Below are positions 6,581-43,864 of a stretch of 64,000 nucleotides of DNA, piece after piece. Both the position numbers and the translations under genes were made by a program. Under the pieces are notes generated by a model, which did not search any database, was not told where the DNA came from, and saw only the letters and a list, made by a program, of their open reading frames with translations. This stretch comes from [Phialemoniopsis] sp. UDSM-2020 (lineage: Eukaryota; Ascomycota; Sordariomycetes; Thyridiales; Thyridiaceae). Position 1 is the stretch's first letter, and each line of letters opens with the position of its first letter. Where the stretch lies: positions 806,001 to 870,000 of the forward strand of contig JAEILZ010000005.1 of assembly GCA_018873225.1 (NCBI GenBank), written 5' to 3'.

Positions 6581-9500
6581 TCATAGCACAACCACATCCG
6601 CCTGCTCATCCACCGGCGCCGCCGGCACCACAACCTGCCCCCGGAACTCCCTCCTGATGCGCGCGCACCTCTTGACGAAATCCAACAGCGACTCCTCCGC
6701 CGTCCGTCCGTAGAACTGACCCGAGCCCGTAAACTGCACTTTGACCTCCTGCACGCCCGACCAGGGCGTGACCTCTGCCGCCGGAGATGCTTCTCCGACC
6801 CCCTGCCGGTGATACTCCACCGGCGCCGGCCCCTCGGCGAACTGCCCCACCAGGATCCACCGCGCAATCCTCGGCGCCCCGACCGCCTCGGCCACCGCCA
6901 CCGCACTCCTGACCACTCCTGTTGAGTCACTGCCACTGCTGCTCCGGTACGTCACCCGCGCCCCCCGGCGCACGAGCATCTTGGCCACGCCCATCCTGCC
7001 GTGCGCGCAGGCCGCCATCAGCGCCGTGCCCCAGGGCGACCCCTCGAGCTCGACGTCGGCGCCCGCGATGTCGAGCAGCGCCGCTACGGCGCGCTCGTGG
7101 CCCCTCGTCGCCGCGTTGCACAGCGCGCTGACGTACCGGCCCTGCACGCGGTCCGCAAACTCGCGCAGGTACTCGCGCGGCCAGGCCCTCGCCAGGCGGG
7201 GCAGGATGTGGTCGTCGTCGTCAGCGGCGATGGCAAACAGACCTTTCAGCAGGTCTCCCTCCGCCGCCAGGCGGTGCAGGTCCCATATCCCCGAAAGGAC
7301 GTACGACGTGTACGACCGGTTGAGCATGGCGTCGTGCAGCGGCGAGTAGCGCGTCTTGTCGCGCAGGTACGGGTCGAGCCCGCGCTCGCGCACGAGGTAG
7401 TCAAAGACGGCCGGGTTGCGCCCCTGCTCGGCGGCGAGGCTGAGCAGGCTCGTGTCGTCGACGTCGCGGGCGCGCGGGTCGGCGCCGCCGCGCTCGATGA
7501 GCAGCTTCACGGTGACGAGGGGGTCGGTGCGCTCGTCGGGCCTGTCCCTGTCTTTGCTTCTGTGGTGGCTGTTGGCGTCGGCGGCGCCGGCGGCAGCGCG
7601 GTCCCGCGGCGTGTGGTGGTCGCAGCAGGCGCGCATGAGCGGCGTGTAGGCCTGCCCGTCGCGCGGGTCGGCAAAGGCGCCGCGGTCGAGCAGCGTCGCG
7701 ACGATCTCGCCGCGCGCGTTTTGCACGGCGTTGTGTAGGGGGTAGTCGTGGCAAAAGTCGGGCACGTTGGGGTCGGCGCCGTGGTCGAGCAGGAGGTTGA
7801 CCATGACCGGCGACGAGCTCGCGCCCGCGGCTATGCGCAACGGGGTGGAGCCGGCATCGTCGTAGGATGACTCCCAGAAGGGAACACCAGAGCGCAGATT
7901 AACTATCGCCCGGACGACGTTGCTTAGATCTTGCAGATTGCCTTGATTCGGCGGAGGTGATGCTTTGCTGATTGCTTCTGCGGGCAGCCACGGTCTGTAA
8001 AGGAGTTAATGACTAGCCTCTACTAACACTAGCATTAAATAAATATCTCTCTTACCTGTACTCCTCAACCATCTGATTAATGTGCTTCAGCATAGTCCTC
8101 ATCGCAGGGACCAAGTTCATCTCCGCAGCAACATGCAGCGGCGTCACCGGCGAGCTGAGCCAGTTGTGGTTCTGCCGCAGCGCCGCGTCCAGCGTCTCCC
8201 AGAGGCAGTCGAGCCGCGCCTCGTTGCGGACCGCCTCCTCGACGGCGCTGAACCCCTGCGGGTAGTGCTGCGCGCAGTGGCCCGTCTTGAGCGCCGCGCC
8301 GCGGAACAGCAGCATGCGCACGAGCTTGCCGGCGCCCATGCGCATGGCCAGGATGAGCGGCGTGCAGTTGCGGCACGGCGGCAGGGGGATGTCGATGGGA
8401 CACCCGCTCTTGAGGACCGCCCGGCACATGTCGACGTCCTGGTTGCGCAGCGCCATCTCCATCGCCTCGGCCATGACCCGCAGGCCCCGGTGCGGATAGT
8501 TGCACCGCGCCACGACGTCGGGCGGCGGCGGCCCGTCCTTCCCGGCCTTGAGCACCGCCCTGTCGAGCTCGTCCAGCTTGTCGTCGACGGCGTCGGCCAG
8601 CAGCGCGATGGCGTTCTTGGAGAAGACCTGGATCGCCTTGATGAGCGGCGTGACGCCGAAGTCGTCGCGCGGGTTCCGCTCGCACCCGAGCTCGAGCAGC
8701 GCCCGCAGCGCCGCCGTGTGCGTCGGGTGCACGGCGTGGTGCACCGGCCTGCACCCTTCGCTGTCGCGCGCCTCGATGTCCGCGCCGCGCTGGACGAGCA
8801 GGCGCACGCCGTTGACGTCGCCGCCCATGGCCGCCATGTGCAGCGCCGTCATGCCGCGGTCGGGAAGCACGTCGTCCACCCCCAAGTACCCGCGGTCGAG
8901 GTAGAAGCTCGCGACGTGCGTCTGGTTGTACAGCGCCGCGATGTGCAGCGCATTGCAGCCGGCGAGCAGCTGCTTCGCGTGCGGCTGCCCCTGCTCCTGC
9001 TGCGTCGTTGACGACACCCTGCGGCTCTCGCCGTAGGGCAGCGAGCACCGCGCTGCAAAGTCGCACTTGTCGCCGCCGACCTGCTCGATCAGCTCGATGA
9101 GGCGCAGGTTGCCGCGCGACGCGGCCGCGAGCGCGGCGTCCATGCCCGTCGGCGACCGGGCGCGCACGTCGGCGCCCGCCTGGATGAGTATCCTCGCGCA
9201 CTCGTACTGCCCGTCCTGTATAGCCAGGACCACGGCCGGATGCCCGTCCGTCGTGCGCGCGTTGGGGTCGGCGCCGGCGCGCAGCAGCTCCCTCAGTGTC
9301 TCCTCCGTGTGCTGGAGGGGCCCGGGCCTTCCCGGTAGGGGCGGCGGCAGGGAAGTCGTGCACGCCTGCAGCAGAGGGGTCATGCCGCGCGAGTTCCTGG
9401 CGTTGATCTGGTCCTTGTCGACGGCGGCGATGACGAGCGACAGGACGTCCATGGGCCCGCAGTGCGAGATCACAGCCTCCTGGAGCCCCGACATGCCGTT

Positions 9501-12500
9501 GGCCTCCTGGACGGGCGAGACGCCCCGGTCGAGCATGACCTTGACGAGTTCCTCGAGCCCGTTCCTGATCGCCCAGCAGAGCATCAGAATCGTGCCCCTG
9601 TCCTTGACGATCTGATCTGCGTACTTGGTGGCTTTCAGCGTGTGGGAATACGTCCGCCACATCATGAAAGGCAGCGGTGGCAGATACCCCGGCGCCGGAA
9701 ACTCCTTGTTCCAGACATCCTTTGTCAAGATAGAAAATCCCGAGGCCTCGTGCTGTGTTTCGTATTCCTCTAGAGCACCCTCTTTTACAAGTGATTCAAT
9801 AGCCGTCGTGATAGGTCCCATTAGCATCGAATTGTAGCGAGGTCGCTGAGAGTAATAGTGCAACAGCACGTCCTTACAAAACCGCTCCCACAGTGTCCGT
9901 GATTGGCCGTCGCGGGACTTGATGACATCGGGTGTCAGCAGGGCATTGAACACATTGACACCGAGCGGCTTTGTGTAAGCAGGGTGACGAACATGACGGT
10001 CAAGGTCGGGGCCGGTCGACTTGAAGCCGAAGAATATCGTCTCGGCCGGCGTCTTGCCGTCAATTCGCTGGACACTAGCTTTGTCGCCACAGGCTTCTCT
10101 CAGCTTCTCAACAAACGGCAAGTCTGCGCCGAAATTGAGAAAGTGCATTGGCGTCGAACCGTCTTCCGTGGTGACAGTAAAGTCTACACCCTTGGTCCCC
10201 ATGAGACGTGACAAGAGGCTCATAGAAGCCCATTCGGCGGCAAGATGGGGGATAGGAATGTCGCTCTTGAAGAATGCCTCGTCTCCATCACACAGAGGCA
10301 AGAGGAGTGAGGCCGCATCCGGGTTCTCGCTGGAGCGGCCGACAACGTTGAAGAGTTCTCGCACGAACATGAAGGCCTCAGCAAGCGGAGTGCGGCCCTG
10401 CTTCGTCACACGTCGCAGGGCCACGTCTTTGTCGTCGCCGGACGCGATGAGCGCCTTCAACAGAGGCACGTCGTTATTTGCCGCTGCATAATGCCAGACG
10501 CATCGCCCATTGTTATCGGTAGCCGTGATATCGGCGCCATGGTCTAGTAGTAGTTGTAGGTGTTCTGGGGTCTCTGTCAATAGCAATGGGGTACGTCCCT
10601 CGCTATCACGGGCGTCGAGACTTGATCCTCTCTTAATCAGCTGCGTGATGAGCTTTGTAAACTTGTCTTCTACTGCCAGGTGGAGAGCAGTCTGTCCACC
10701 TGATTCGGAATTGCCGTCCGATTGCAGCCTTTTGTTCGGGTCCCCCCTTGGATCCTGCAGCAACCACTGGAGGAGAGCAGGTTCAAAATCTCGCATAAAC
10801 CGATCAACGGCGGAATGGTATAGTTTGTCGTCATGAGGGAGCTTCCTGAGACATGTTGGGTTTGTACAATCAAGGTCCAGTCCTTCGGCCATTTCCCAGA
10901 CAAGCCCTAGAATCTCCTCCTGAACGAAGCGGCTTGGTATGTAGTCGCACTTTTCAAAACGATCGGTGTCGGGGTCAACGAGGAGGTGTGATATTAAGTC
11001 GATGATGTGCTCGAAGAGCCGATCAAGACAAGCTTTATGGCGCGGGTTGAGCTGCACTGATGCCCATTCGTCACGCGGCCACGACTTCAGGACTTCGAGA
11101 CAGTGTTCGTCGGGAAGTATGCCATCGGTAATTTTAATGAATATGCTAGCATCCCAAGTGTTAAGTGAAGTGAGAAGAGCACTGGCCGTGACAGAGACTC
11201 TCCGGGCTCCTTGATTCTGGAAGGGATTCATGACCGGGCTGTATTCCATCAGCTTTTCGATCGTCTCGAGCCGTGCGGGCCCCCAAAAGTCGTACTCCTC
11301 CGGGGCTATCATAGTCGCGGACAAAAAGGCGCCACTGGTGTCGAGAGTCAAGATATTCGGGCCAGTGATGGCATAATAAACCGGCGGCCCGTCCGTTGCC
11401 TCGTCCCCAGAGACCTCGCTGACACTACGTCCCATCTCCAACAGACGTTGGCACAGCTGCGGGACCTCCAACGCAGCTGCAATATGCAGCGAGAGGTCGT
11501 CGCCCCTCAAAAGCATATTCCGTAGTCTCAGAAAAGGACCTGGAGAGGCAGTGACCCCAAATGTTGTCGGAAACATCTGCAGGCGGTACTCTTGAATCCA
11601 GTTCACAAAGTTGTTCGACCGGGTGTTGCTGAAAAGGATAATGGCCTGATCCCAGGCAGCATCGTCTGGACTGCCTCGTACAAGAGCAGGCCACCAGGCT
11701 GCTGCTATTGCATAGAACGGATGTCTTTGCCGTCGGTTGTTGATATGCTGTTTCTCGATCTCAAACTCGGCGCCCAGGCGGTTGAAGGTTTTGGAATTGA
11801 GGAATCGTAGCATGGTCAACCCGAGTGCACTGTGAGCGGCGTCGGTGTCATGACTGGACAAGTCGCTGTACTGGTCCCATGCTTTGTTGTGCAGAAAGTC
11901 AATCACAATGCTGTGAGATGGCTTGATCTCATCCAACTCGATATCGACTAGGCAACCGAGAAGAGATTTGAGCTCCTTTGGGCTAATACTTTCCATTTCC
12001 GACAGATCAACGTCATCTGATGAACAGAGAACCGACAAGGCCTCGCATAGACCTTCAAGTGAGATCCTTGTACATGCGTGTCGGGTCTTGGACTGGATAT
12101 CTGACAGGCGAAGTATCCATAACAGACTGTATCTGACCAACAAGACTGGCGAAAGGGGACAAGCTGGATATTTGTCACAGATAAGTCTTGACTGGGCAGC
12201 TTGGTGAAGAGTTGCTTCATATGTTCCCGCTATTGTTGACGGAAGGTTCTGAAGCCTCTCGTGCAATTCAGATGGTTCAGTCACATCCTGCAAATATTGG
12301 AGTTGGCATAATGCCCAGTGAATACTAGTGCAACTCGTTAGATAATTTCAAAGACAAAGAGGCTGAACTAACTTGCCTCTGACCAGAAGAAGCCAACGTA
12401 TCCATCATTGTCTGGCGAGATTTTTCATCACCGCGCAACAATGCGTTCGGTCCAAACTGTTGCATTTGCCACTCAAGAATGGACCGCACTTCAACTTCGG

Positions 12501-13671
12501 GAGGGTTGATATCAGCGTGCGTAAAGCCCTGAGAATGTTTGTCGATGATCTCTGACCACCCTGATAGTAGCAGTATCTGAATAATAGGTTTTGGCTGCAT
12601 CCATTTGCGTATCAAGGAGAGTTTTTCGATCATTGATCCGCTAATCTCATCGAAGCCGTCGATAACAACCAAGACCTTCTCGAAGAACTTCTCAGAAATG
12701 GCGTGAAAAAGAACGGCTCGCAAGTCTGCACCTTCAATATCGAGCGGTTTGCGCAGAGAGTCTGGAGGGAGGGCCAGGGCTGTGAGGAGTTCGGCCGGAG
12801 ACGCTTGAAGATACTCTTGCAGCCTCCTCTCCGCCTGGCCACTCTGACAGACAAGCTGCCAGAGCAAGGAACCCATCACCGATGACATAGTCTGTTTCTC
12901 CATGGATATCGTGTCTGTGATGTGAAAGCACACGGCCGTTTCCTCACCAGCTCGAGGCAAGAGCCTGTCGATCATGGTTGAAGCCAGCACTGTCTTTCCA
13001 CAGCCTGGCTGTTCAGAGAGCCATAGATGAGCTGATCTACCCTCACTCCAGTCCTGGTAAGGCCTCCACGTTTCGACCCATTCGTTTGTTCCAGGGCACC
13101 GGTTCCGAGACAACCTTGCCATGGCATGATACGGGTGAGGATGGCGTATATCTCGTAAACCCAGCCTGTGCAGCACGCCATTCCATTTGACGGTATCGAC
13201 GAATGAGCGTGATTTGACTTCGACTTCCGGGTCATCACAAGAAAGTGCCCTGTAGAGCGAAGCGAGGGAGAGGGAGGCCGATGCAAGTCTGAGGTTGGTA
13301 ACGTGACCAGCCAGTTGATCTAGCAGCACCTTCACTTGATCACCCTTGAGCAGCACCTCTCCACTGAACGTAGGTACGTCGTTTCCCTTTAGTGATAGTT
13401 GCAAAGACTCTAACGTCCGCTCACATGAGTGGAGGTGACGAAGATTGTGAGCACCGGGCGACGCCTTGAAGTTCTCGTCATCGATGCTGGAAGCTAGCAT
13501 GGAGAGGTTGAGCAAGACACCCGCCAGAGCTCTCAGTAAGCTGCTGAGCCTATCGATCTCCTGGTAGCCAGACTTTGGCCTCTTGTGCAGGCCTGTCAAT
13601 GCGCCATGGACGTGCTGGACAGCCTCGATGAGGTTGGCCAGCTTGGCCGTAAGCGAGGTGTCTGGCGCCAT
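6581..13671 (-). CDS. NACHT-ankyrin STAND protein (fungal NLR-like receptor), about 2325 aa
   Basis: Three exons: 13671-12377, 12324-8056 and 7994-6581, total 6978 nt. The N-terminal ~180 residues are helical and resemble the small fungal domains that precede NACHT. A NACHT NTPase follows, with Walker A SEQPGCGKTVLAS (about 218-230) and Walker B VLVVIDGFDEI (about 333-343). After a helical linker (IHWALCQLQYLQDV..LPSTIAGTYEATL) long ankyrin arrays run from about residue 960 to the C-terminus (TALHLAVED, TPLLLTET, TALHMAAMGGDVNGVRLLV, TPLIKAIQ, TPLHVAAEM). The first intron is a GC-AG intron with a perfect AG|GCAAGT donor (12376-12325); the second is GTAAGA..CAG (8055-7995). The ATG at 13671 has a GCCGCC Kozak context. 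By family, such proteins sense ligands through repeats and oligomerise to trigger heterokaryon incompatibility or cell death; the ligand here is unknown. No sign of inactivation: all three exons are open. Confidence 0.9.
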
Positions 13672-14471
13672 GGCGGCGGGTGCCACACGGTGCGCGTCGA
13701 CGCGGTGGTCTTGTACTCATTCAGTCTCGGTGTTTATGGCGTCTCTTCAATGTCACATCTCGTTTTAAGAGTCGGTCACGTCTCGTAAGAGGATGCGCTT
13801 GGGAAGCTTTGTGATGATGCCTGTTCCTGTGCTGGCAAAGGCTGCAGAAAAGGCCAAGGTGCTAAGGTCAGCTTCAGCCACACGTGTCAGCCACAGTGAC
13901 AGGGGTAGCTTGTCAGAGCAGCAGCTTTGCGGGCAGCAGTTTGCCCGACCAACCCTGCAGCCTCAATCCGATGTTGCGTTATCCCTGCAGCTAAATTCGC
14001 GCCTTGCGTTGACGGTGCGTGCTTCTCATCTCAGAATCGCTCTCTCAATACACGGGAATGTAGTGGATGGAGGTATGTGCTGCAGATGTCTCATCCCATG
14101 TCATGTGAGCCGACCTAGCAAGGCCATCATATTACAGCCGTGTTTCCACACCACGACAACGCATTTGACCATGAAAGTACAATGCTGAAGTTCACGATTT
14201 AGTAATCAGCTATCTATTTGAGCTCACGCATGTTATTGAGGGAAAAGGCTTCAATTTCTGGCTCGGATATGATATTATAGCCCGCGCTAAATGACATCAC
14301 CCACGTGACGTCACATTTCGAGGCGTCTCAACGATTAAACTTCGAGATGCCTCCTCACCTTGCGTTCTAGCTCAAAAAAACCATAGAGACACGTTGTTGA
14401 GCTTATACTATCTGGGTGGAAGAAAAGAAAGTCGAGATTACCTGTTCACCACTGACTCCCATTACGTGGCA
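13672..14471. other. Divergent intergenic region between the NACHT-ANK gene and sulfite oxidase
   Basis: No supported coding sequence. It serves as promoter for both flanking genes and carries a compound E-box/CRE site at 14302-14313. Confidence 0.6.
14302..14313. promoter_or_regulatory. Overlapping E-box and CRE palindrome upstream of sulfite oxidase
   Basis: CACGTG (14302-14307) overlaps the full CRE palindrome TGACGTCA (14306-14313), about 160 bp before the sulfite oxidase start. CACGTG is the core bound by Cbf1-type bHLH proteins, which control sulfur genes in fungi, and TGACGTCA is the ATF/CREB bZIP site. Use of either site here is inferred. Confidence 0.5.
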
Positions 14472-17352: not shown

Positions 17353-19122
17353 TTAGCGACCGAGAATCTTTCGCCACCCAGAGCCCTTCTTCGCTTGTGC
17401 CAAGTTGCTACCCACACGAGGTTCGCCATGATTCTTCTGGCCTGACAGAGCTTGGTACTTGTCCACAAGGTCATCAATTGCATCGTCCACCTTCGAGGAC
17501 GTCCTGCATGCTTGCACGTCCAAGTCTATCATATAGTATTTGTCAGAGCCATGTACCAGGGGAGACACCATAACATCAACCCGGTGGCAAGGCAGTTCTA
17601 TGGGCAACCCTGGTTGCCTTGGTGAGAACCTGTCCTGGAGAGCTTCCAATTCAAGATCCTGTGCTGGGTCGTCATCGGGGCCTTTGAGCGGCGGCAATTG
17701 GATTGCGTCGAAGCCCACCTCGAACTTTCCCGCAGACCCGAGGAGCACTACAAGCCTCTCGCCGTCTTCTCGAACCAGGAGTAGTGTAGCCGTCAGTAGA
17801 CCACTCGCCTTGCTCTCCCAAAACGTCCTCCGTGCCAGCGCCGGAATCCACTCATGTGCCACCGGTCGGCTTGACTTGATTGGATTCGGCGTCGGCTTCC
17901 CTGTATCTTCGTTCGGTGGAGCCAACGTCTTCAAAAGACGATAGAGGGATGGAGGGGGGCCAGCCCTCAACTGTAAAATGTGCAGAGGGAAGACGCCTTC
18001 GGACTCGACGGGTCGTGCCATCGGATCTTGCCGGACATAGAGGCGCTGCAGGGCTCCCCGCTTGATGACTTTGGCAAACTGCCCGGCTCGGACTCGTGCG
18101 TACTGCTGATCCCCTCCCGACAGCTTGCGGAGGTATACAGCTAGGAAGGTTGAGTCCTCATAGTCAGGCGGCGCCGGACAGTCCAAAGCAGCGACGTAGA
18201 TGTCGTTGTCAAGGCGGGCGAGCGGGAGGTCGATGCGCAAGCCCCGGTTGGTCATGGAATAGGGCGGACGGGGCTCCCAGTCCTGGTAAGGTATCATGGA
18301 GTTGGAGTAGACGAAATTACGAGGCGATTTGGCCAATATGCCGTGCTGCGATTCCGGAGAGGCATCGAGGTCAGTCCACGCGAAGAGAGATTGGTCGTCG
18401 GAATGCTTCATTATCTCCTCTTGGAGGCGCAGAAAGGCTTTGGAACCCTCGCCGTAGAGCATGGGCATATTGACGTCGAAAAGGCCCATAAGGCAGTACG
18501 CAATGTCCTCAGGCCTGGTGGTGTTCCGGTGAGCAGCCCAGGACATCCGCTTGGCTATGCTTGCCGATTTGAGGGACTTTGCACCCGTAAGGATGTCTTC
18601 GTCAATCCCGGTGATAGCAGCTATTGGCCTGCTCAAGCTAGCCTTCTCTCCCAGACTCGTCCAATCATCCGAGTAGAAGACTAGGTCACCCGGCGCGAGG
18701 AGTTCTTGCAACGTCCAGCCTCTCGTAAACCAGCGGCAGCGCGCAAATTCGGACTCGGGGTCTGCCGTCTTGGTATTTGAGGGAACGTTCTCGAGATGCG
18801 CATAGCACACCTCGGCTTTGAAGTACCACTCGTACATCGAATTGATCGCTTCCGACAGCTCAGCACTGCTGCTCTTATCAATGCAGCACGAGTCGATCCA
18901 GACATATTCGAGGCCGTCCCTAATTGCTTGCTCACAGGAATACCGAACTTTGCGGAATGATTCCTTTTCGGCACCGGTGCCATTGACGATGTCCCCAAAA
19001 AGGACCTCGCAACTGGTCCAGGTGTGCGAGAGAATGGCGTAAGGAAAATCGCCATCTGGAGTGAAATCAATCATCGACGGCCCTGAAGGCTGGTTGATAG
19101 TAGCTGCCACCAACACTCGCAT
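17353..19122 (-). CDS. HET-domain (heterokaryon incompatibility) protein, 589 aa
   Basis: Single exon. The N-terminal HET domain shows its three landmarks in order: YAILSHTW (about 28-35), EYVWIDSCCIDK (about 71-82) and RWFTRGWTLQELLAPGDLVF (about 130-149), followed by AKRMSWAAHRNTTRPEDIAY and YCLMGLFDVNMPMLYGEG. The remaining ~350 residues are variable and show no repeats. HET domains are TIR-related and trigger incompatibility cell death when cells of unlike genotype fuse; the N-terminal position and start MRVL are typical. Tail-to-tail with the secreted-protein gene. No frameshift or stop is seen, so the gene appears intact. Confidence 0.92.
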   Translation of the reverse strand: MRVLVAATINQPSGPSMIDFTPDGDFPYAILSHTWTSCEVLFGDIVNGTGAEKESFRKVRYSCEQAIRDGLEYVWIDSCCIDKSSSAELSEAINSMYEWYFKAEVCYAHLENVPSNTKTADPESEFARCRWFTRGWTLQELLAPGDLVFYSDDWTSLGEKASLSRPIAAITGIDEDILTGAKSLKSASIAKRMSWAAHRNTTRPEDIAYCLMGLFDVNMPMLYGEGSKAFLRLQEEIMKHSDDQSLFAWTDLDASPESQHGILAKSPRNFVYSNSMIPYQDWEPRPPYSMTNRGLRIDLPLARLDNDIYVAALDCPAPPDYEDSTFLAVYLRKLSGGDQQYARVRAGQFAKVIKRGALQRLYVRQDPMARPVESEGVFPLHILQLRAGPPPSLYRLLKTLAPPNEDTGKPTPNPIKSSRPVAHEWIPALARRTFWESKASGLLTATLLLVREDGERLVVLLGSAGKFEVGFDAIQLPPLKGPDDDPAQDLELEALQDRFSPRQPGLPIELPCHRVDVMVSPLVHGSDKYYMIDLDVQACRTSSKVDDAIDDLVDKYQALSGQKNHGEPRVGSNLAQAKKGSGWRKILGR

Positions 19123-19618
19123 TGTCTCTTATCTAGTCACTGGAACTTAGCACTTGTATAATTAAAGTGGTGGACCCTCAGCGCGGAAATATAGTACGTG
19201 ATCAGCTGGTTTGAGATAGCCCCTTTTGGACGGAACAGCATGACACCTGTCGTGCTTTCCCCCCTCTTGGCGGCGAGGCTTTATTTCAGGAGGCGAAGGA
19301 TATAAACTTGGCAGACATAGGGCTAAGCGGTATGATGCAGGCAACAACATCACTGTTGGGTGTTGGTTCGCCCCCAACTTCAGGGGGCTGGCCAATCATT
19401 GACCCCCGGCTAAGCCCTGCCTGCGGCTTACGATGTAACACAAGAGCAGTAATAAATAGATCACATCACTGGTGACACAGCCGCTTGCGCGAGCAAGTTT
19501 TTCATTCATTCATTCCTCTTTCCAAGTATTTCTCAATATCGGGGTCGGGTTACTCAAAAACCTTCACTCCTACGCTAAGTAATCCCAAAGTTCACCACCT
19601 AGCAGACATTTGCACAAC
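19123..19618. other. Divergent promoter region between the HET gene and the LITAF-like gene
   Basis: About 500 bp with no supported coding sequence. The last 100 bp before 19619 are CT-rich (cattcctctttcc), a usual feature of a fungal transcription start region. Confidence 0.55.
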
Positions 19619-20568: not shown

Positions 20569-22580
20569 TTACCCCGGGCTCATAACACGCATATCTTCTC
20601 CCAGCCTCCTCAAACCCGCAACCACATCTTCCAGGAACCGCCTTTGCAAGTCCTCATTATCCAAATCCGTCTCGCCCAGCCCAAAGTCGCACCCGAGACA
20701 CTTTCTCACGATCCGCGGGTACGTTGGCCCCATTTGCCGCACGAGTAATTGCGCCAGCTTCTCCGCGGCGCGGTAGTCGACCGATCCCTCGCCGCCCTCA
20801 CCTCCTGCTCCGAGCTTGGTGAGCGCCATGCGCCGCAGATCCGCCCACGGCCGACCATACCCTATCTCCAACAGCAAGATCCCGAAACTAAACAGTAATT
20901 TGTTTCGCGCACCGCTGGCGTTGACACTACCAACGTTACCGCTCCCGCTACCCGCACGGCCCTTGCCCTTCGCTGCTGCCGCTGCTTGCTGATACGTCTC
21001 GAGGCGGGTCATGAAATACGGGCCTTGTAGCTCCTGACCGGTGTCGGACCCCTCTCCTGCGGCCGGCGAGTGGAAGTACCTCACACTTCGGCCCAGATCC
21101 GCTGGCATCCACGGCGTGCTGTAGAACTGCATGATGCCCTCCGCTACAGACCCGGCAAGGCCGAAGAGTGCGCCCCGCGGTAACGAGCGGAAGACAGGGT
21201 CTTCTGCGATCCACGCGACGAGGTCGCTGAGTGACTGACACGCGCCGAGTGGATTGGTTGTGGAAGAGGCGGCGGCAGGTGGACTGGGCGGGACGCAAAA
21301 CCACTGAGCCGAACCGGCCGGGCTGCGCCAGGAGTCGAGGAGGAGGCGGTGTGAGGGCGACAGAGTTATGGTGGCCTCATGAAAGGCACGGCAGATGTCC
21401 GAAATGTCGGCGTCGTCGTCGAGCTGCAGCCCAGCCATGGACTGGGTGGTGAGGTCGAGGCCTGGGAGCTGTGGTGCGCCGGAAGTGTCCGGTGCCTTGG
21501 CGATAGAGAGGTCTTTTGACGCGTTCTTTGCGTGCGCCTTGCTGTGTTTGACGACGAATTTGTCGGACCCTGCCTCTAGGATGGTTGTGAGTTGTTGCAT
21601 ATTCGACGGCGACGTTTGCTTTTGGACCGGTGCAGGTAGAGGGGTGCCCTCATCATCTCCATCGTCGCAAGACTGCTGCACCTCGAGGCGCAGTGGCGTC
21701 TTGGATCCATAGTTTGAGCCATCGTGAGTTATAGCCAGCTCACATGTGACGTATCGAGTCGGCGCTGTGGAAGAGCCATTATCCAAGATGCGAACATCAA
21801 AGCAATGACACCGATGAGACTGGCAGACCCATCGCACTTGCAACATCGAGTACAGCGCCTTGGAAGCGTACCGGAACCGGTGGTATGGCTGGAGCATGTT
21901 GAGGGTTCGGGCAGTCTTCCGGATGGGGCCTTCATCCTTGGGCTCGTCGGTGATGCTATTCAGTGCCTTTATGATGTGTTCTGTGATGAGGCCGAAGTCT
22001 TGATTGAAGTCTCGCAATTCCTCGATGGCCTTCGCTATACTAGGCTTGTTGAGCCCAAGCCTGAAGCGGGTCTTGCAATGTCTGAACCATTCTGAAGGGC
22101 TTGTCTTCTGTACACGTTGTGAGTACTGGTACAAATGAACGCTTGTGAGAAGCGGCTCACATCTTGCCTCTCCCCAACTTCTGCTCTGAAAGTCTCAGCT
22201 TGCAAACAGAGACGCTGAAGAGCTTCATTGATCTGGTCTGCTGTTCGTCGGCAGGAAACGAAAGACTCGTCCAGAGCTCCAAGCTTCCGGACGTACAGCG
22301 AACTCATCACCAGTCCATTCCTCGCTGCGTCTGACGAAGGCTTATCCAGCACCTCCTGTACCCGCACTCTGTCCTTCGTGATAGCAGTGAGTAGGTTGAC
22401 GGCATTGTTGCGGAAGATGGTCTTCTGCGCGCCGAGCTTGGTGTCGAGGACGAGCACCTCACTGGGGAACCGCTTGAAAGAGGAGAAGACCTGGAACACC
22501 CTACCCGATCGGTCGTATGCCTCCAGGGCAATGGGGATCGAACCCAAGGCGGCGCCCACAATGAGCTCAACGCCGCTCAT
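20569..22580 (-). CDS. DUF7580-like protein (HeLo-like N-terminus with kinase-like C-terminus), 652 aa
   Basis: Two exons, 22580-22161 and 22107-20569 (1959 nt), joined by a GTGAGC..TACAG intron. The start MSGVELIVGAALGSIPIALE is the usual opening of this fungal family, followed by a helical region (TADQINEALQRLCLQAETFR). The middle has the Cys/His block RWVCQSHRCHCFDVRI. The C-terminal part contains LFGLAGSVAEGIMQFYSTPW and KLLFSFGILLLEIGYGRPWA, which resemble degenerate kinase C-lobe segments, but no HRD or DFG motif is present. Members of this type are poorly characterised and often neighbour incompatibility genes. The stop TAA (20571-20569) overlaps a good donor (GGGTAAGTC), so a very short extra exon is possible. 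Its start lies 315 bp from the divergent C2H2-PP1 gene. Confidence 0.8.
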
Positions 22581-22895
22581 TCTGACAAGTCCGCGATTGA
22601 TGCGCTGCTTTTGTTCGATGCGAACGCTTTGGCGAAGTCGACGAGCGTCCGAAGATCGCGAGGCGAGGGCTGATGTGCCCCTCACCAGGTTCGCCCAATC
22701 CGCGTCGTCGACACCCCTGCAGCTCGTGCATTAGTATTGATCAGATTTTGCTGCCGATGGCTGACGAGAAAGAATGCCCCGCGCAGGGCTGAGAATGGAG
22801 CGGGGCTGCTCATCGACATTGACGAAATTTTGCATCCAGTTTCTCTGCAGTTGGAAGCCCGTGTTGGTTGTCATGGAGTTTTCGTAGGCTGAACC
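22581..22895. promoter_or_regulatory. Shared divergent promoter, DUF7580-like / C2H2-PP1
   Basis: Only 315 bp separate the two start codons, so the genes probably share control elements. I see no obvious palindromic operator. Confidence 0.5.
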
Positions 22896-25800
22896 ATGTC
22901 CCTATCCCTGCTCACTCGTCAAGATGTCGAGCGATGGCTTCCAGATGCCGGCTCCTCGAAGACTGGCGGCTTCGTCGCAAAGCTCTTCGTCACCATCCAC
23001 CGGGCTATGGCCTTTCTTCCCAAGAGTCCTTTGAGCACAAAGTCGGGAACCACACACAACGCTCGGAATGAGCTTGAGCGCTTCTTTCTCTGGGGTCAAG
23101 GTCTGTCTGTCGCGGAGGGTGAACTAGACGACACCCTTACACACGCCAAAGAGCTCCATGATGAGGTCCTTACCCTCCTACTAAGGCTTGGGACGTCGGT
23201 GTTGCAATGTCTGTCGAGAGACTCGGGGCCGTCTTTGAAAGCAGTTGGCGAGCAATGCGACGATCTGAAACGTTTACTAGACGCCACAGAGACATTGCTT
23301 CAAGATCACGATGACAACTTGGATGAGAGCCAAGACGAAGACGCATTTTCAATATCAGACACGTCCGACTACGGGACAGCAGAGATACTAGACGACATCG
23401 CAGCCTATATCGACTGTCTCCTCGACCTGTCATCTGCCTTGGAGAAGCCGGCCTTTGATGTTCATGTTGAAGAAGCCGAGACAGAGGCGGCGACAGAACA
23501 AGAGCATTTTGACGTCTCTAGTGACGAGGCCCTCATATATTGTATAAGACTACGAGACCGCTTCGAAGAGCTGCCCAAATATCTCGTCGAGCTCTTGGCA
23601 GAAATGAATGTCCTCCGATCTACGAGGCTCCGGGAGAAAAGGGAGCGGGCCCAAAGGGCCGTGAAGAGTCTAGAACTAGCCGACGACATAACGGAAAGCC
23701 TCTTTTCCAACACGGATCCGCGCGTCGTCACGGAAACGACCAAGTCTTCGGCCCCTCAGTCCTCTGTCTTCTCTATAGGGCCTCGGAAGCAGTCATGGCC
23801 AAAGCCAACTGTCGACTTCCCTGATGATGCATCCGAGGCAACCTTTGCCACGTTTTCGACAGCGGCTTCGGCGATCGCGCAGGGACGGCCTCGAGTGCCG
23901 CCAATTCCTGAAGCACAGGACGGAGTCATAGAATGCTCTCTCTGTTTGGATCCTCTACTACCAGACGATTCAGGGAAGACAATCTCGACGAAGGAGTGGA
24001 AGTAAGTTTGATCTTATTGGCTACTGAATCAATCTCAACGACCGACATCTCGCTAACTTGCATAGAAAACATGTTTTTGCGGATCTTATGCCATACGTCT
24101 GCACGGTTGAAGCGTGTCCTGTCGCCCGTCAAGAACCCTTCATCAGAAGTGCAATGTGGGCAAAGCACGAAGCTTCGCACCTGACAACCCAGCATTCTTC
24201 AGCTTCGATATGCGTCTTCTGCGGATCGCAGTATCAGTCTGATAATGCAGCATACTACAAGCACGTGGCCAAACATCTTCGAGAAGTTTCGCTTTATGTA
24301 GTGCCGCAGACCGTGGATGATGAAGCAGAGCAGGACGAGAGCGATCTTGAAAGCGAAGAAGGCCTAATCGAAGAAGACCATTTACATACTTTGCGCGAGG
24401 CGCTCGTCCGAGAGGAGAGAATCCATGAGGGAACCAAGAATATGCTTGCCTCATTGACTAATAGAGACCAACGCAAACGAGTGGAAGCTGAGCTGAAAGC
24501 GTCAAGACAGCGCATCGACGACTTGCGACAGAAGATTCAGCTCGAGGAGCGAGCAGCACGGGGCGGCTCAGTGCTCGTAGACGACCGACCCGACATCCAT
24601 GTGAATGTGGATAAGGAAGACTCGGAAACTTCAGAAGATGCGGACGTCGGGGCGGCGTCGGCGAGCTCGTCGATTCACGCTGACCGTACCCCAGGTGCTG
24701 ATTCAACAGAAGCTGGTGACGTTCCTGCCCTCTCTGCTTCTGTTATTGAGGAAGATGAAGAAGATGCGCCAGCCCCTGCGTCGGTGGCAGCCCCTGAGGA
24801 AGGAGAAACACTTCGTGATCCTGCTCTCAACTCCACAGACCCAGACTTGAAAGACATCATTGATCGACTTGTCGAGGTGCGAGGTTCACGGCCTGGAAAG
24901 CAGGTTCAACTCCTAGACTCGGAAATACGCTGGCTTCTTGAAAAGTCCCGGGAGGTATTCCTATCGCAGCCCATCCTACTGGAGTTGGAGGCTCCTCTCA
25001 AGGTACGTCTAATCGGAACTAGCTCGGGTTCATAAGACACACCATCCACTAAGCGAATTGAATAAATGCAGGTCTGCGGTAGCATTCATGGCCAGTACTA
25101 CGACCTCCTAAGGACATTCGAATTTAGCGGTTTTCCACCAGAAGCCAACTACCTCTTCTTGGGTAATTACGTCGACTTCGGCAAGCAAAGCCTTGAGACT
25201 ATCTGTCTCCTCCTAGCCTACAAGATCAAGTACCCCGAGAACTTTTTCGTTCTTCGAGGCAACCACGAGTCCGCTCACATGAACCGTATCTTTGGGTTCT
25301 ATGATGAGTGCAAAAGGCGGTACAACATCAAGCTATGGAAGTCTTTCACCGATGTCTTCAACTGCATGCCGGTGGCCGCTATCATCGATGAGAAAATCTT
25401 CTGTATGAACGGTGGTTTAAGCCCAGACCTCAATTCCTTGGAGCAGATTCGAAGGATTCAGCGGCCTACAGAAGTATGTCTTCCCAAGTAACCCCCGTCG
25501 CCCAAAATTCCCAGTTGAAAGGGTACTAAAAGAAGACAGATACCCGATGTCGGGCTGCTCTGTGACCTTGTATGGGCCAACCCTGACAAGGACATCACTG
25601 GGTGGGATGTAAACAATCGGGATGACGACGTTTTGAATGAGGACGAGGGTCGATCCTTCACCTTTGGGCCAGACATCGTGAGCCGCTTCTTGCAGAAGCA
25701 CGATATGGATCTCATCGTGCGCTCCAAGCAAGTTGTGGAGGATGGATATGAATTCTTTGCGAATCGGCAGCTCACAACTATCTTCGGCGCTCCCAACTAC

Positions 25801-26294
25801 CGCGGCGAGTACGACAACGCTGCGGCGATCATGAGCGTGGACGAGAGCCTTCTCGTCTCTTTTCAGGCAAGGACTTCTCATCCCTGACTATGGATCTCTT
25901 GCGATGCCGCAATGCTAACCACGTTAGAGACATGTAGATCCTCACCCCGGCAGTTAGGAACCAGACTCGGCGACGGTTGGTGACGCCTCGTTCTGGAGAG
26001 GATGACCTCGTGCTGGAAGCCATATCGGGTCCTTCACGTGTTGAGACGAGGGAGCCTAGGCCACTTGATTCTGTCGTCCCACCTGAAGAGTTGCCGAACA
26101 GGAAAAGGGGAGCTCGCCTGGATATTGCAACGCTTCCGGCCGCGCAAAAACCCTCCCTCGGTAATCGGTAAGTTTGCCGTCCGACATGGGCGCGTCGTGC
26201 CGATCTTTTCGTGACTGACTGGGTTACTGGCAGCTTTTTGGCTCGTCTAGGCATCAACCGTAGAAGAGGCGAAGACAAACCATCCAAGTCATGA
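22896..26294 (+). CDS. C2H2 zinc-finger protein fused to a PP1-type pseudophosphatase, 1020 aa
   Basis: Six exons: 22896-24001, 24066-25002, 25072-25473, 25540-25866, 25938-26167 and 26234-26294 (3063 nt). Residues 1-365 are helical and acidic, as in fungal STAND-like N-termini. Then ECSLCLDP and two fingers ([26 protein letters not shown]), the usual fungal C2H2 block. A coiled, acidic linker follows. Residues 627-910 are a whole PP1 domain ([64 protein letters not shown]), yet the catalytic set is broken. In PP1 numbering D64 is Ser (685), D92 Asn (713), R96 Phe (717), H173 Asn (794) and H248 Lys (878); R221 is probably Glu (851). H66, D95, N124 and H125 remain. The SFQ|ILTP intron is GC-AG. 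A basic tail ends in [11 protein letters not shown]. Predicted to be a non-catalytic scaffold or decoy. The gene is open throughout. Confidence 0.88.
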
Positions 26295-39382: not shown

Positions 39383-42300
39383 TCACCCAGAGAAGGAATA
39401 AGGGCGAGGTCTACGCTCGTTGATAGCGAGGAAGGGCCTTGGTTGCGCCTCCTGCTCCCCATATGACCTGGCTCGGCCTCTCCTAGTACCCTGCTCCGGA
39501 ACGCCGAGGTGCCGACTCGACGGATGATCATCGACCTCTTCCTTTCTCCTGGAGTTAGGCTCAGGAGAAGGCCGACTAGGCGGAGAAGCGACCCTTGCAC
39601 CGGTCAGCCGCTCGGGACGTCGCCCATCCAAAGCCTCTCGTGAGCTAGACCGAGTGCTGTCCTTCTCAGCATCTCGCTGCCTACCCGTACTCTTCTGCTG
39701 CATCTCTTGTTCTCCATCTTGCTTACAGAGCATACTAATAATGGCTTTGACCGGATAGAGGGTGTCGCGGAGGCGACCAATGAGGTCGAGTGGCGCGCCA
39801 GCATTGAGCGCGGCCACCAAGACGGCAACGCCACGACGGCCCTTCCAGTTTCCGGACATCCGCGACGCCGTAGCCGCCTTGCGTAGTACAGCCGATAGCA
39901 CCTTGGACTTGCTCATCGTCCCCCAGGTTGTAACGTCTGACGACGTCTCGGAGTGGTCGTCGCTTTCCAGTGATGGCGAGTGCGCCCGAATTCGTCTATC
40001 GAGGCCAGTTCTTTCTTCCTCGTCTTCATCTCCTGGGCGGTAGGTCAGAAGATGTTGTGTATGGATCTTGCGCACATCGTAGCGGTTGAGCAGAGCCTGA
40101 ATCTCGGAGTCCTTGAGCTCCGCAGCCAGGTCGGTGATCTCGGTCCAATCTTCGGAAAGCCACGCCCCGTGCTCGAGGAGCATCTCAGTGATGGCGTAAT
40201 CGCCATGCGCAACGCCCTGATACAGCGCGCCGACGTGAATGTTGTCGCGCGCAAAGACATTGGCATCGTAGTGCAGCAGGAGCTTCATGATGGTCTTGCG
40301 GCTGCCGTACGCGGCGGCGATGAGCGGCGTGCCGTATTGTCCGCCCGACGCGTTGATCTTGGCGCCGTGCTCGAGTAGCAGCCTGACCATGTCCTCGCCA
40401 CCCACCGACACGGCGGCGTGCAGCGGGTAGCCGTAGTAACGGCAGGCGGCGTTGGGATCGAAGCCGTTCTTGAGGAGAACAGCCAGGTCCTGGAAGCTGC
40501 CGGCCGTGATGGGGGCGCAGAGGTAGTCGCCGACCAGGGCGAAGGACATCTTCATTGTCGTGGCCAGCGCCTGCTCTTGTTCTTTCCACGATGCGTCTTC
40601 GCCGGCGAGCGACTGCATCAGCGGGCTGCGAAGGAACCTGTCCTCGCTCCACAGACCGCTTAGATCGTGCTTCCCCTGATCCCAGACGTAGGTCTGCGCT
40701 CGCACAAGCCGTGTTTCTCCCGTAACAAGTTCCACGTCTACGTCAACGGTCTCGCGCCGAAAATAGCTGGTCCTGTTTCTCTCGAGTCGAGTTGCCAATT
40801 CATCGTCGTCACTCGGCGGCTTCATCTTTCGGGCTGTTTTGCGATCGTTGCAGAGCAGCAAATCGAGGTACCGTAGGGCGTCCGCCCGTACTCCTAGCAC
40901 GAGGAAGCCGGTCACCTTCCCAGCCGTCTCGATCTCCACCGACTCGTTTCTTTCTTCCGCGTTGAGTTCGAGTATCCTCTTGGTCATGCGAGACTCCTGA
41001 ATGGCCGCAGCGTGATTGAGGCCGCGTGGCCACCATCGGTCGTACCCCTTCAACTCGGCAGGGGTCATAACCTCGGCCGCATGCTTGATGGAGACGTCTG
41101 ATTTGGCCCAGTCTGCGGAAGACGGGTGCAGTCGCCTCTTGAGGTCGCGAGAATACACACCCTCTGTTGATGCCGAGGCCACTGCGTGCAGGACGCTTGG
41201 GAACATGAGCCTCCCGTACACGAAAAGATTGGACTCGACAGGATTGAACAGGGCTGCAGCTGACAATTCGGCTTGAGAGAAGTGATTCGTTCCAGCAAGC
41301 ATGTACGATGGAGCTAGCGTCGCCGCAGGCAGAGGAAGGCTGTCTTCTTTCCGGAAAGGGGGCGGCTTGATCGGCTCTGGACTGATGAAGGTGTCGTCTT
41401 CGTCTACAGAGATGTCCGATTCACTCGGCATCGGGCGAATGTCCTCTGGGAGTCCTGAAAATCGAACAAAACGTTTTGATGTAGTCTCTTTCTCTTCAGG
41501 CTCTCTGGAGACAACGGGTGTCTCATTTGTATCCGTGATTCGTATGAGTGGAGCGCTTCCCTCAGCAGCCTCGGCGCTCTCGGTGAGCTGTTTACTCACG
41601 GGTGCTACCGTAGGTGCCTCTGAAGATTCTTCTACAGGCGACCGTTCTGGCAAATGCAACAACTCAGCTGTGACCGGAAGGTTTACCTCTGGCTGGGGAA
41701 AGTCGATATCAACGCTGGTTAACGTAGTCTCCTGGTGAGCTCTGGCCTCAGCCAGGCTCTTAGCGCTTTGTGTCAGAGAGAGCCCATCAGGTAGCGAACA
41801 ATAAGGGCAGATGTAATTGCATGCTCCATTGTAGTCAATCACCTTGCCACGAATCTGAGCCGCGGACGGACGGTCCTCCTGGCGGTCGACGAGCAGCTCC
41901 GAGACAAGGGTTAATGGCAGTGCTTCATCGCCAGTGCCGCTTCTCTCGAGCTTTGCTAACCAAAGCCTGCGGGCGGCTGGGTTTGCGTATATCGCATCGG
42001 ACCTCATCGAACCGTTCTGGGCAAAGAAATCGTACATGTCGGCCTTGGAAAACTGGTGCAGAACAGTGGCCATCTCGAGAAACACGCAGCCTAGGGACCA
42101 AATGTCACTCGCCGTGTTCCTCGCCTGTATCGCGCATCAGTGAAAAGATTTCCTTGCGAAGAGTTCGCTGTTTACTCACTCCAGTCTCGAGAGTCTCAGG
42201 CGCGCAGTATCGAGGCGTGAAGCCATGGTGCTTGCCTTGTGTGGTGCTTTCGTCCTCGGTACCCCAGGCTCGCGAGGTCCCAAAGTCGCTCAGGTAGACT

Positions 42301-43271
42301 TTATCATCCAATACCAAGATGTTCTGTGGCTTGATGTCGTTGTGCCTGACGTTCTTCTGATGCAGGTACGCCAGCGCTGTAGACAGACAACCAAAAAAGG
42401 AGCGCAAATGTCGCCTCTTGATGTTGTCGTCAAGCTTCATTTCACGAAGATAATCGTCTAGGTTCATATCGGCAACAGGCAACATGATGATGCCGAGAAA
42501 TTTTGGGTCCGTATATGAGCCCATGAGTTTGACAATGTGGGGATGATAAAGCCGTTTCAGGGCCTGAATCTCGCTTTCAAATTGTCGCAGTTGTCTTTCG
42601 TCGTCCAGGGCAGAGTGTCCACGAAGGACCCGTTTTCGAGCAAAAGGACGGAGTGTCTTCCGACTGCAGACTTTGTCCACAAAACCGAATCGTCCGGTGC
42701 CCAATGATTTGATCGAAGCGAAATAGTCATCACCACTGCCTGACAAATGAAGATGCTTGCCGCCTTCGCCTTCCTCCATATCGGAAGCGCTCTCCTCTTT
42801 GCATAGAACCATCTTCTGATATTTGAAGAAGGCAGCACGCATCTTTGCGCCACGAATGAAGGCCGGAAGATTGCTCTCTGTATAGGGCAGTGCCGAATCG
42901 GTCAGACCCTCTTTGATGAAACAGTCAAGCAGTGACGCTTTTTGCAGCATCTTGAGAACTGCGAACGTGCGTGGGCGGAGGCTCCATTCTCCCTTGCCGA
43001 ACATGACCAACAGCTCACTAATGGGCTGGAAAACAGCGTCTCGTAATATTCTCCTTGTCGCCATCGGGTCGCTGGCTCGTGGAAGCCATTTATCCAGTCC
43101 TTTGTTGAGCTCAGCCTCCGAGATAAACTTCTGGACTTTCATTGCTGATAGCTTCTTCAAGCCCTCTTTGTACTCGCGTGCTGAGAGCTTGGGCAGCGGC
43201 ACCATCTGGAGGTCATCTTCGTCTTCATCTCCGAACCAGGTCTCGTACGACGGGGGGAGATACTTCACCAT
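39383..43271 (-). CDS. Protein kinase with C-terminal ankyrin repeats, 1277 aa
   Basis: Two exons, 43271-42180 and 42124-39383 (3834 nt), joined by GTGAGT..TACAG within the activation segment (LETG|ARNTASDIWSLGCVFLE). A ~195-residue helical N-terminus precedes a Ser/Thr kinase domain: glycine loop SLGTGRFGFV, a lysine in ARKRVL, HNDIKPQN with the catalytic Asp312 (HND instead of HRD), SDFG (Asp329) and YCAPE. Catalysis is thus predicted to be intact. The ~450 residues after the kinase are disordered and acidic, with a CPYC pair (ICPYCSLPDG). Ankyrin repeats occupy about 905-1040 (YPLHAAVSVGGEDMVRLLLE, TPLIAAAYGSRKTIMKLLL). A basic, Ser/Arg-rich tail follows. The ATG at 43271 was preferred to frames further upstream. 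The gene is divergent from the HeLo-pseudokinase; a signalling role in the same response is inferred. Confidence 0.88.
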
Positions 43272-43864
43272 CTTAAAAGATGAACAGAAATACCGATTGA
43301 GGGACGAGCTAGGGGCAATTGCAGAAAACAACCGTCTAACAAATGGTGATTCCAGATAGCACACCCCATGTTTAAGTAGCCTCAGGCCGAGAGCAGGCTG
43401 AAGCACAGCCGCTCATGAACGCACACCTTCTATGACATGACAATCAGGTCGCAGACCGCGGCTGGTGAACGTGCTGCGCTGAAATTCGGTATGGGCGAAT
43501 CACCATGCAGATCACATTTTGCTTCGCCATTACACCAGCGCGCGGCTGCTGATCTTGTCGGAGAGCAGCTAGGTCATCACTTGCATGACAAATGCCATAC
43601 GGCAAATTGCGTGCAAGGTTACGTTGCAAGAGGCGTAGACTAGACATGCAATCGCCGTGGGGGCGGAGGGGCTGTGTGCTGTACGTCAGAACCACACTGA
43701 GCCAATCATTTTCGGTGACAAGGCTGAGGCAAAAATGATCAAATGCAATATTTATCTCGTGTTTTTTAGTATTGTATGTGGCTCCCCGGCCAGACCCCGA
43801 ATACGTCGAAAACTCCCAGAAAGGTCTGCAATTACCTACCGTGAAACCCTCATTTCGGACGAGC
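43272..43864. promoter_or_regulatory. Shared divergent promoter, kinase-ANK / HeLo-pseudokinase
   Basis: 593 bp separate the two start codons. No coding sequence is supported. Both genes probably draw on elements in this interval; I could not single out a clear operator. Confidence 0.5.

Follow-up and report, generated by a model that had tools for sequence, protein, structure and literature searches.

A PP1 domain with a predicted dead active site, fused to a C2H2 protein and paired with a HeLo-like/DUF7580 gene, is a candidate fungal non-self sensor

The stretch of DNA analysed here (the window, 64 kb) lies at C7:806001-870000 in a fungal genome (44.2 Mb, 11 contigs). At positions 22896-26294 on its forward strand, open reading frames and a splice-site model give a gene of six exons with zero internal stops, encoding a protein of 1020 amino acids. 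In this protein, a helical N-terminal part is followed by acuF-like C2H2 fingers and then by a complete PP1 domain. The gene lies head-to-head with a second gene, and several genes of immune type are found nearby (Table 1).

Table 1 Features of the fusion gene and its surroundings, in window positions
Feature	Position	Strand	Content
NACHT/NPHP3_N + long ankyrin gene	8055-13716	-	Upstream of the fusion gene
HET-domain gene	17356-19128	-	Upstream of the fusion gene
Partner gene	20572-22580	-	Head-to-head with the fusion gene; HeLo-like N-terminus, DUF7580 C-terminus; exon structure provisional
Intergenic stretch	22581..22895		Between the start codons at 22580 (-) and 22896 (+), 316 bp apart; possible shared promoter
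Exon 1	22896..24001	+	Residues 1-368: N-terminal helical part (~1-270), low-complexity linker, start of first zinc cluster
Intron 1	24002..24065	+	GT-AG
Exon 2	24066..25002	+	Remaining acuF-like C2H2 fingers, HR1/coiled-coil-like part (475-527), acidic linker, PP1 N-terminal helices
Intron 2	25003..25071	+	GT-AG; equals host PP1 intron 1 in place and phase (APIK^ICGD / APLK^VCGS)
Exon 3	25072..25473	+	Core of the predicted dead PP1; D64S, D92N, R96F, H173N
Intron 3	25474..25539	+	Equals host PP1 intron 2 in place and phase (RPTD^IPD / RPTE^IPD)
Exon 4	25540..25866	+	PP1; 9-aa insertion near R221, H248K, C273R
Intron 4	25867..25937	+	GC-AG; equals host PP1 intron 3 in place and phase (SFQ^ILKP / SFQ^ILTP)
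Exon 5	25938..26167	+	Remainder of PP1, then the C-terminal tail
Intron 5	26168..26233	+	GT-AG
Exon 6	26234..26294	+	Final residues and stop
Kinase-plus-ankyrin gene	39386-43412	-	
HeLo + DUF7580 gene	43976-45829	+	

Pfam places an HR1/coiled-coil-type match at residues 475-527, STPPase_N at 630-677 (E 2.8e-18) and Metallophos at 680-876 (E 4.2e-36) in the 1020-residue protein, and at E 0.01 it finds no nucleotide-binding domain of the NB-ARC or NACHT type. PP1 homology reaches about residue 929; the initial annotation of this DNA, which put the domain at about 627-910, was right that the domain is full but set its end too early. It had also described two C2H2 fingers, and the finger region is indeed there, but with three Cys/His clusters, which align with the clusters of relatives. 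Six of the nine PP1-bearing relatives described below carry a precomputed annotation of the acuF-like family (PF26082), and the Cys/His pattern of the window protein aligns with theirs. The N-terminal part is modelled by AlphaFold2 as a helical bundle at middling confidence (mean pLDDT 65), and a structure search of the PDB returned no significant match to this fold. The fusion point lies inside exon 2, and since this one exon carries most of the finger region as well as the beginning of PP1 (STPPase_N), separate transcripts are unlikely. The HR1 match, the GC-AG fourth intron and the adjoining partner gene are additions to the initial annotation.

The genome's own PP1 gene (host PP1, C1:1784322-1785392, L025) is interrupted by phase 0 introns following codons 60, 194 and 294, and all three recur at the corresponding places and in the same phase in the window gene. 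Because the introns match in place and phase, the PP1 module is a duplicate of the genomic PP1 gene, and the position shared with host PP1 supports the GC-AG fourth intron. A retrocopy origin is ruled out by the three introns. Over 300 aligned codons the two copies are 79% identical in amino acids, with nucleotide identities of 80, 90 and 46% at codon positions 1, 2 and 3, and with fourfold sites at chance identity (27/96; expected 0.27). Preservation of the protein since so old a duplication means that the module is under constraint, as the initial annotation had expected.

The closest solved chain is yeast PP1 (7qwj, E 8e-159), in an alignment that spans the whole PP1 part. Relative to host PP1, four of the six metal ligands are replaced in the window copy (D64S, D92N, H173N and H248K) and R96 has become F, all as initially annotated, with D208N and C273R as further changes; H66, D95, N124, H125 and Y272 are retained. 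A further claimed substitution, R221E, depends on the alignment because a 9-residue insertion precedes the site: phmmer gives E, but MAFFT gives R. According to the accessible text of a study of PP1 metal binding, M1 is bound by D64, H66 and D92, and M2 by D92, N124, H173 and H248 (PMC10066265), so that both metal sites are affected in the window copy. An active PP1 has all six metal ligands and R96, which the window copy has not; a pseudophosphatase has a conserved phosphatase domain whose catalytic residues are gone, and that is what we find. The window domain is thus predicted to be catalytically dead. Its stability is a real question, because H248K alone made human PP1 impossible to purify, according to the same accessible text (PMC10066265); the window copy may lack stability unless other changes compensate. 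C273R together with K248 could replace the metal charge.

Change at functional surfaces was compared with change at other canonical-invariant positions in six groups of sequences, leaving out P0052 and P0062. Active-site positions are changed in excess in the window copy (p 0.010), in the near fungal group (window, P0001, P0003 and P0008; p 0.013) and in seven plant rows (p 0.0016), with p from 0.05 to 0.36 in the remaining three groups. In none of the six groups is the RVxF pocket less changed than the remaining canonical-invariant sites, and some Echria and Fusarium members have it eroded. These comparisons support the targeted loss of the active site that was initially suggested, and do not bear out a scaffold role built on a specially preserved RVxF groove. 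An AlphaFold2 model, made for the relative P0001 only, shows its PP1 part with the PP1 fold (TM 0.97 to 6zk6, rmsd 1.4, block pLDDT 62-97).

Two database searches (the best 120 of 143 matches from one, 16 matches from the other) returned the same N-terminal part together with PP1 in nine database proteins among the matches listed, from Rhypophila, Phialemonium, Hypoxylon, Echria, Monosporascus and four Fusarium records. They are deposited under names such as 'Metallo-dependent phosphatase-like protein', and the fingers are partly or wholly missing in some of them. The E-value and the nine proteins of the same architecture exclude a chance match. Together with the one-exon fusion point, these nine fusions confirm the initially described fusion. 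In the ten fusions (window protein and nine relatives), D92 is always N, R96 is always Y, F or C, and C273 is always changed. H66 and H173 are each kept in 9/10, D64 and N124 in 8/10 and H248 in 4/10; the last is lost in six and is K in the window copy only. The expectation that relatives would share the substitutions of the window copy therefore holds for D92N and the loss of R96 (10/10 each), but not for D64, H173 and H248, which are lost in 2/10, 1/10 and 6/10. Six of the ten fusions are 45-62% identical to host PP1.

The N-terminal part of P0001 is common to 16 of the proteins listed, P0001 included, and these differ at the C-terminal end: nine carry PP1, two AAA/TPR, one DUF6590, and the other four lack a recognisable end, P0125 being a fragment. 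Both AAA/TPR proteins, P0089 and P0126, are from Fusarium nematophilum, and in P0089, whose N-terminal module is 49% identical to that of the window protein, NB-ARC was found. NB-ARC/TPR is an NLR architecture, which ties the N-terminal module to immune-type receptors. Two Fusarium proteins, P0121 and P0123, share the N-terminal part but lack PP1.

The same active-site edit occurs in other proteins. The sample comprised 215 PP1 stretches with letters at positions 92 and 96, taken from the listed proteins, the window copy, host PP1 and the host C10 gene. D92 and R96 are both present in 191 of these, and the 24 odd rows are the ten C2H2-type fusions, one HET protein, eight plant proteins and five environmental proteins, proportions that are not population frequencies, as the stretches are best matches filtered by length. 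The HET protein, P0030 of the lichen fungus Flavoplaca (Flavoplaca austrocitrina MAG), has a HET domain (E 5e-26) followed by a PP1 part, likewise predicted dead, with D92N, R96Y and C273R, and is a second immune-type fusion of this kind. Precomputed domains include a kinase in three of the eight plant proteins (Erigeron P0043, Iris P0133 and Iris P0134), a kinase in one of the five environmental proteins and a trypsin-like domain in three; in the environmental P0094-P0097, a PP1 part with D92N/R96F stands alongside one or the other. Some of the plant fusions may be merged gene models. P0052 of Nyssa sinensis keeps D92 and has H66K, R96E and an annotated RING-type domain; its H66K is the same change as in a laboratory substrate-trapping mutant.

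Positions 247, 272 and 273 played no part in choosing the odd rows. A247, Y272 and C273 are found in 99%, 100% and 99% of 131 canonical rows, and are changed in 22/24, 18/24 and 23/24 of the odd rows, C273 being kept in P0062. Topology tests with the active-site columns masked rejected a single clade of fungal C2H2 fusions and plants (AU p 0.0001) as well as a single clade of all 24 odd rows (p 3e-7), and did not reject one origin for the fungal C2H2 and HET fusions (p 0.66). In free trees, fungal fusions are scattered near fungal PP1 and plant rows lie among plant PP1. We read these results as the same edit having arisen at least twice, a reading weakened by long branches and by the naming of the groups afterwards.

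The best Pfam match of the partner's N-terminus is HeLo (PF14479), which is weak and below the cut-off (E 0.03), and its C-terminus matches DUF7580 (PF24476, E 9.7e-7). The genome holds seven DUF7580 matches, two of them inside the window, and at least seven acuF-like C2H2 matches (the window gene and six more). Five of the seven C2H2 matches lie within 8 kb of five of the seven DUF7580 matches, in this one genome and with both counts as lower bounds. The pairs are head-to-head on C7 (the window), at C1:3605 kb and at C6:995 kb, and on the same strand at C4:2494 kb and C6:3433 kb, with other ORFs intervening at the last. Random placement never reached three pairs in 200,000 draws, in a test that is post hoc, covers one genome and assumes uniform placement. 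The C2H2 matches with no DUF7580 match nearby (C11 and C4:4937 kb) look, by eye, like different proteins. The C-terminal ends of the five paired C2H2 genes differ: the dead PP1, WD40 (by Pfam), ankyrin (by eye), a PHD-like/acidic tail (by eye) and a fifth end without assignment. Their N-terminal parts show weak mutual alignment only. The pattern is that of a front and a partner that stay constant while the end varies. This recurring partner, the convergence with plants and the HET fusion all go beyond the initial annotation.

Other features of these surroundings were also recorded. The kinase-plus-ankyrin and HeLo + DUF7580 genes form a second divergent pair in the window. At C6:3426500-3436499 (L036), a subtilisin-like ORF (by eye) lies between the DUF7580 match and the C2H2-ankyrin gene, and is possibly the tail of the DUF7580 protein. 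Genome-wide, there are at least 151 HET matches and 117 NPHP3_N matches.

The NWD2/HET-S gene pair consists of adjoining sensor and HeLo executor genes. The present locus resembles such HET/HeLo allorecognition systems in its adjoining candidate sensor and executor genes, and a HET fusion to a dead PP1 exists as well (P0030); it differs in that its sensor would be a C2H2 protein with a dead PP1 and that the partner combines DUF7580 with a weak HeLo match. With the PP1 catalytic subunit the window copy shares the fold, 79% identity and three intron positions and phases, but it lacks four metal ligands and R96 and is fused to an N-terminal part of ~620 residues. Among the titles and abstract openings listed in searches of open-access literature, we found no account of a dead PP1 in an immune-type protein, of a C2H2-PP1 fusion or of a C2H2/DUF7580 pair.

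PP1 as a pathogen target is described, in the accessible text of three papers, for plants. Phytophthora Pi04314 binds PP1c via R/KVxF, and a phosphatase-dead PP1c still binds Pi04314 and cancels its benefit (PMC4740116), so that a dead PP1 can serve as bait in one tested case. Ralstonia RipAS associates with StTOPP6 (PMC10273071), and the NLR SUT1 interacts with TOPP4, a mutant form of which activates it (PMC12941724). Our search of open-access literature found no fungal PP1-targeting factor and saw PP1 as a pathogen target for plants only. As with plant NLR integrated decoys and the guarding of TOPP4 by SUT1, an immune-type protein here would copy or watch a host hub, PP1 in the case of SUT1; in contrast to them, the window protein is fungal and without a nucleotide-binding domain, and its copy of the hub, predicted dead, is fused to a C2H2 protein. 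An integrated decoy is an extra domain derived from a host target: the window PP1 carries host PP1 introns, and targeting of PP1 has been seen in plants only. A survey of Sordariales NLRs, in its accessible parts, proposes PKinase as a CHK2/PRD-4 decoy, records C2H2 in 34 NLRs, and mentions 'phosphatase' solely for an excluded PHOsphatase D family (PMC12258605); it likewise concerns immune-type proteins of fungi that carry the copy of a signalling enzyme, but covered NLRs, which the window protein is not. Laboratory dead PP1 proteins, as described in the accessible texts (H66K, PMC10066265; H129A PP1c-1, PMC4740116), also still bind a partner or effector when inactive, whereas the copy here is natural, its loss of activity is predicted, and the family carries D92N, R96Y/F and C273R/K instead.

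We propose, with a probability of about one half, that, of the two genes, this one encodes the sensor in a fungal unit for non-self or immune recognition, in which the dead PP1 is the bait and the HeLo-like/DUF7580 protein the executor. In this reading the PP1 domain, duplicated from the cell's own enzyme and catalytically dead, is retained as bait for anything that binds, inhibits or hijacks PP1. That could be an effector or inhibitor of foreign origin or, following cell fusion, a PP1 partner that does not match. Ligand binding would switch the N-terminal helical/C2H2 module to another state, the changed module would activate the head-to-head HeLo-like/DUF7580 protein, and the latter would cause membrane damage or death of the compartment. 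The analysis shows the gene structure, the descent of the PP1 module by genomic duplication, its constraint, its loss of metal ligands and R96, the D92N and R96 changes in all ten fusions, the N-terminal module on an NB-ARC/TPR protein and the repeated closeness to DUF7580 genes in this genome, whereas lack of activity, ligand, signal transfer and cell death are inferences. The sensor reading is supported by the fusion common to nine database proteins, by D92N, the loss of R96 and the change of C273 in all ten fusions, by the match of the P0001 model to PP1 (6zk6), by the recurrence of the N-terminal module on NB-ARC and TPR (P0089), by the HET protein with D92N, R96Y and C273R, by a closeness of C2H2 and DUF7580 genes that exceeds random placement in the same genome, by the NACHT + ankyrin, HET and HeLo-DUF7580 genes in the window, and by the standing of PP1 in plants as a pathogen target and a watched hub. 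Counted against it are the unremarkable RVxF pocket, eroded in several relatives, the unpurifiable H248K of human PP1, the N-terminal fold with no significant PDB match, the weak HeLo match of the partner (E 0.03), the window protein's lack of a nucleotide-binding domain by Pfam, and a pairing test that is post hoc and confined to one genome.

The dead module might instead be a dominant-negative regulator that draws regulators or chaperones (SDS22, inhibitor-3, RVxF proteins) away from the cell's own PP1, tuning that enzyme and having no non-self role. Near relatives keep the fold and much of the docking surface, and, in the accessible text of PMC10066265, SDS22 selectively binds PP1 without M1, and H66K PP1 is folded without M1; a plain competitor is at odds, however, with the fusion to immune-type modules (NB-ARC/TPR, HET), with the low conservation of six of the fusions (45-62% identity to host PP1) and with the recurrent DUF7580 neighbour, and we regard it as unlikely. 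We judge it quite unlikely that the set D92N, R96Y/F, A247G/S, Y272W/F and C273R/K makes a new ligand site or a one-metal site rather than merely disabling the enzyme, with a toxin, nucleotide or phosphopeptide as candidate ligand. The set recurs in fungi, plants and the environmental group, also at the unselected positions 247, 272 and 273, a joint fungal-plant origin is rejected, and one metal could remain in the fungal relatives, most of which keep N124 and H173 (4/10 keep H248); yet the window copy is without H173 and H248 too, and both pocket and ligand are hypothetical.

Loss of function through drift of an old fusion would account for four of six metal ligands gone, for several relatives on long branches and for the Fusarium proteins that have the N-terminal part without PP1, but it is very improbable in view of six open exons, of 79% amino-acid identity to host PP1 with fourfold sites at chance, and of D92N and R96 loss retained in 10/10. 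An artefact of gene prediction, or two adjacent transcripts, should also be considered, as the gene model rests on DNA and many long PP1 records give the impression, from names and domains, of merged models; with a fusion point within one exon, nine database records of the same architecture and host PP1 intron positions preserved, we hold this to be extremely unlikely.

PP1 is an essential enzyme, among the most conserved in eukaryotes. Extending the sensor reading beyond this gene, we tentatively suggest that dead PP1 may be a recurrent sensor part, in fungi (C2H2, HET), plants (kinase) and the environmental group, having been converted to bait independently via D92N, R96Y/F and C273R/K, since invaders commonly target PP1. 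The fungal version would plug into the variable end of a C2H2/HeLo-like-DUF7580 system of two genes that elsewhere has WD40, ankyrin or NB-ARC/TPR ends. If the domain is a bait, then PP1 is under attack in fungi as it is in plants, and the attacker could be caught by means of the dead domain itself. The recurrent neighbour would let the whole paired sensor/executor system be found from sequence alone, and with an active-site edit that is repeated, it becomes directly testable how a phosphatase turns into a binding domain.
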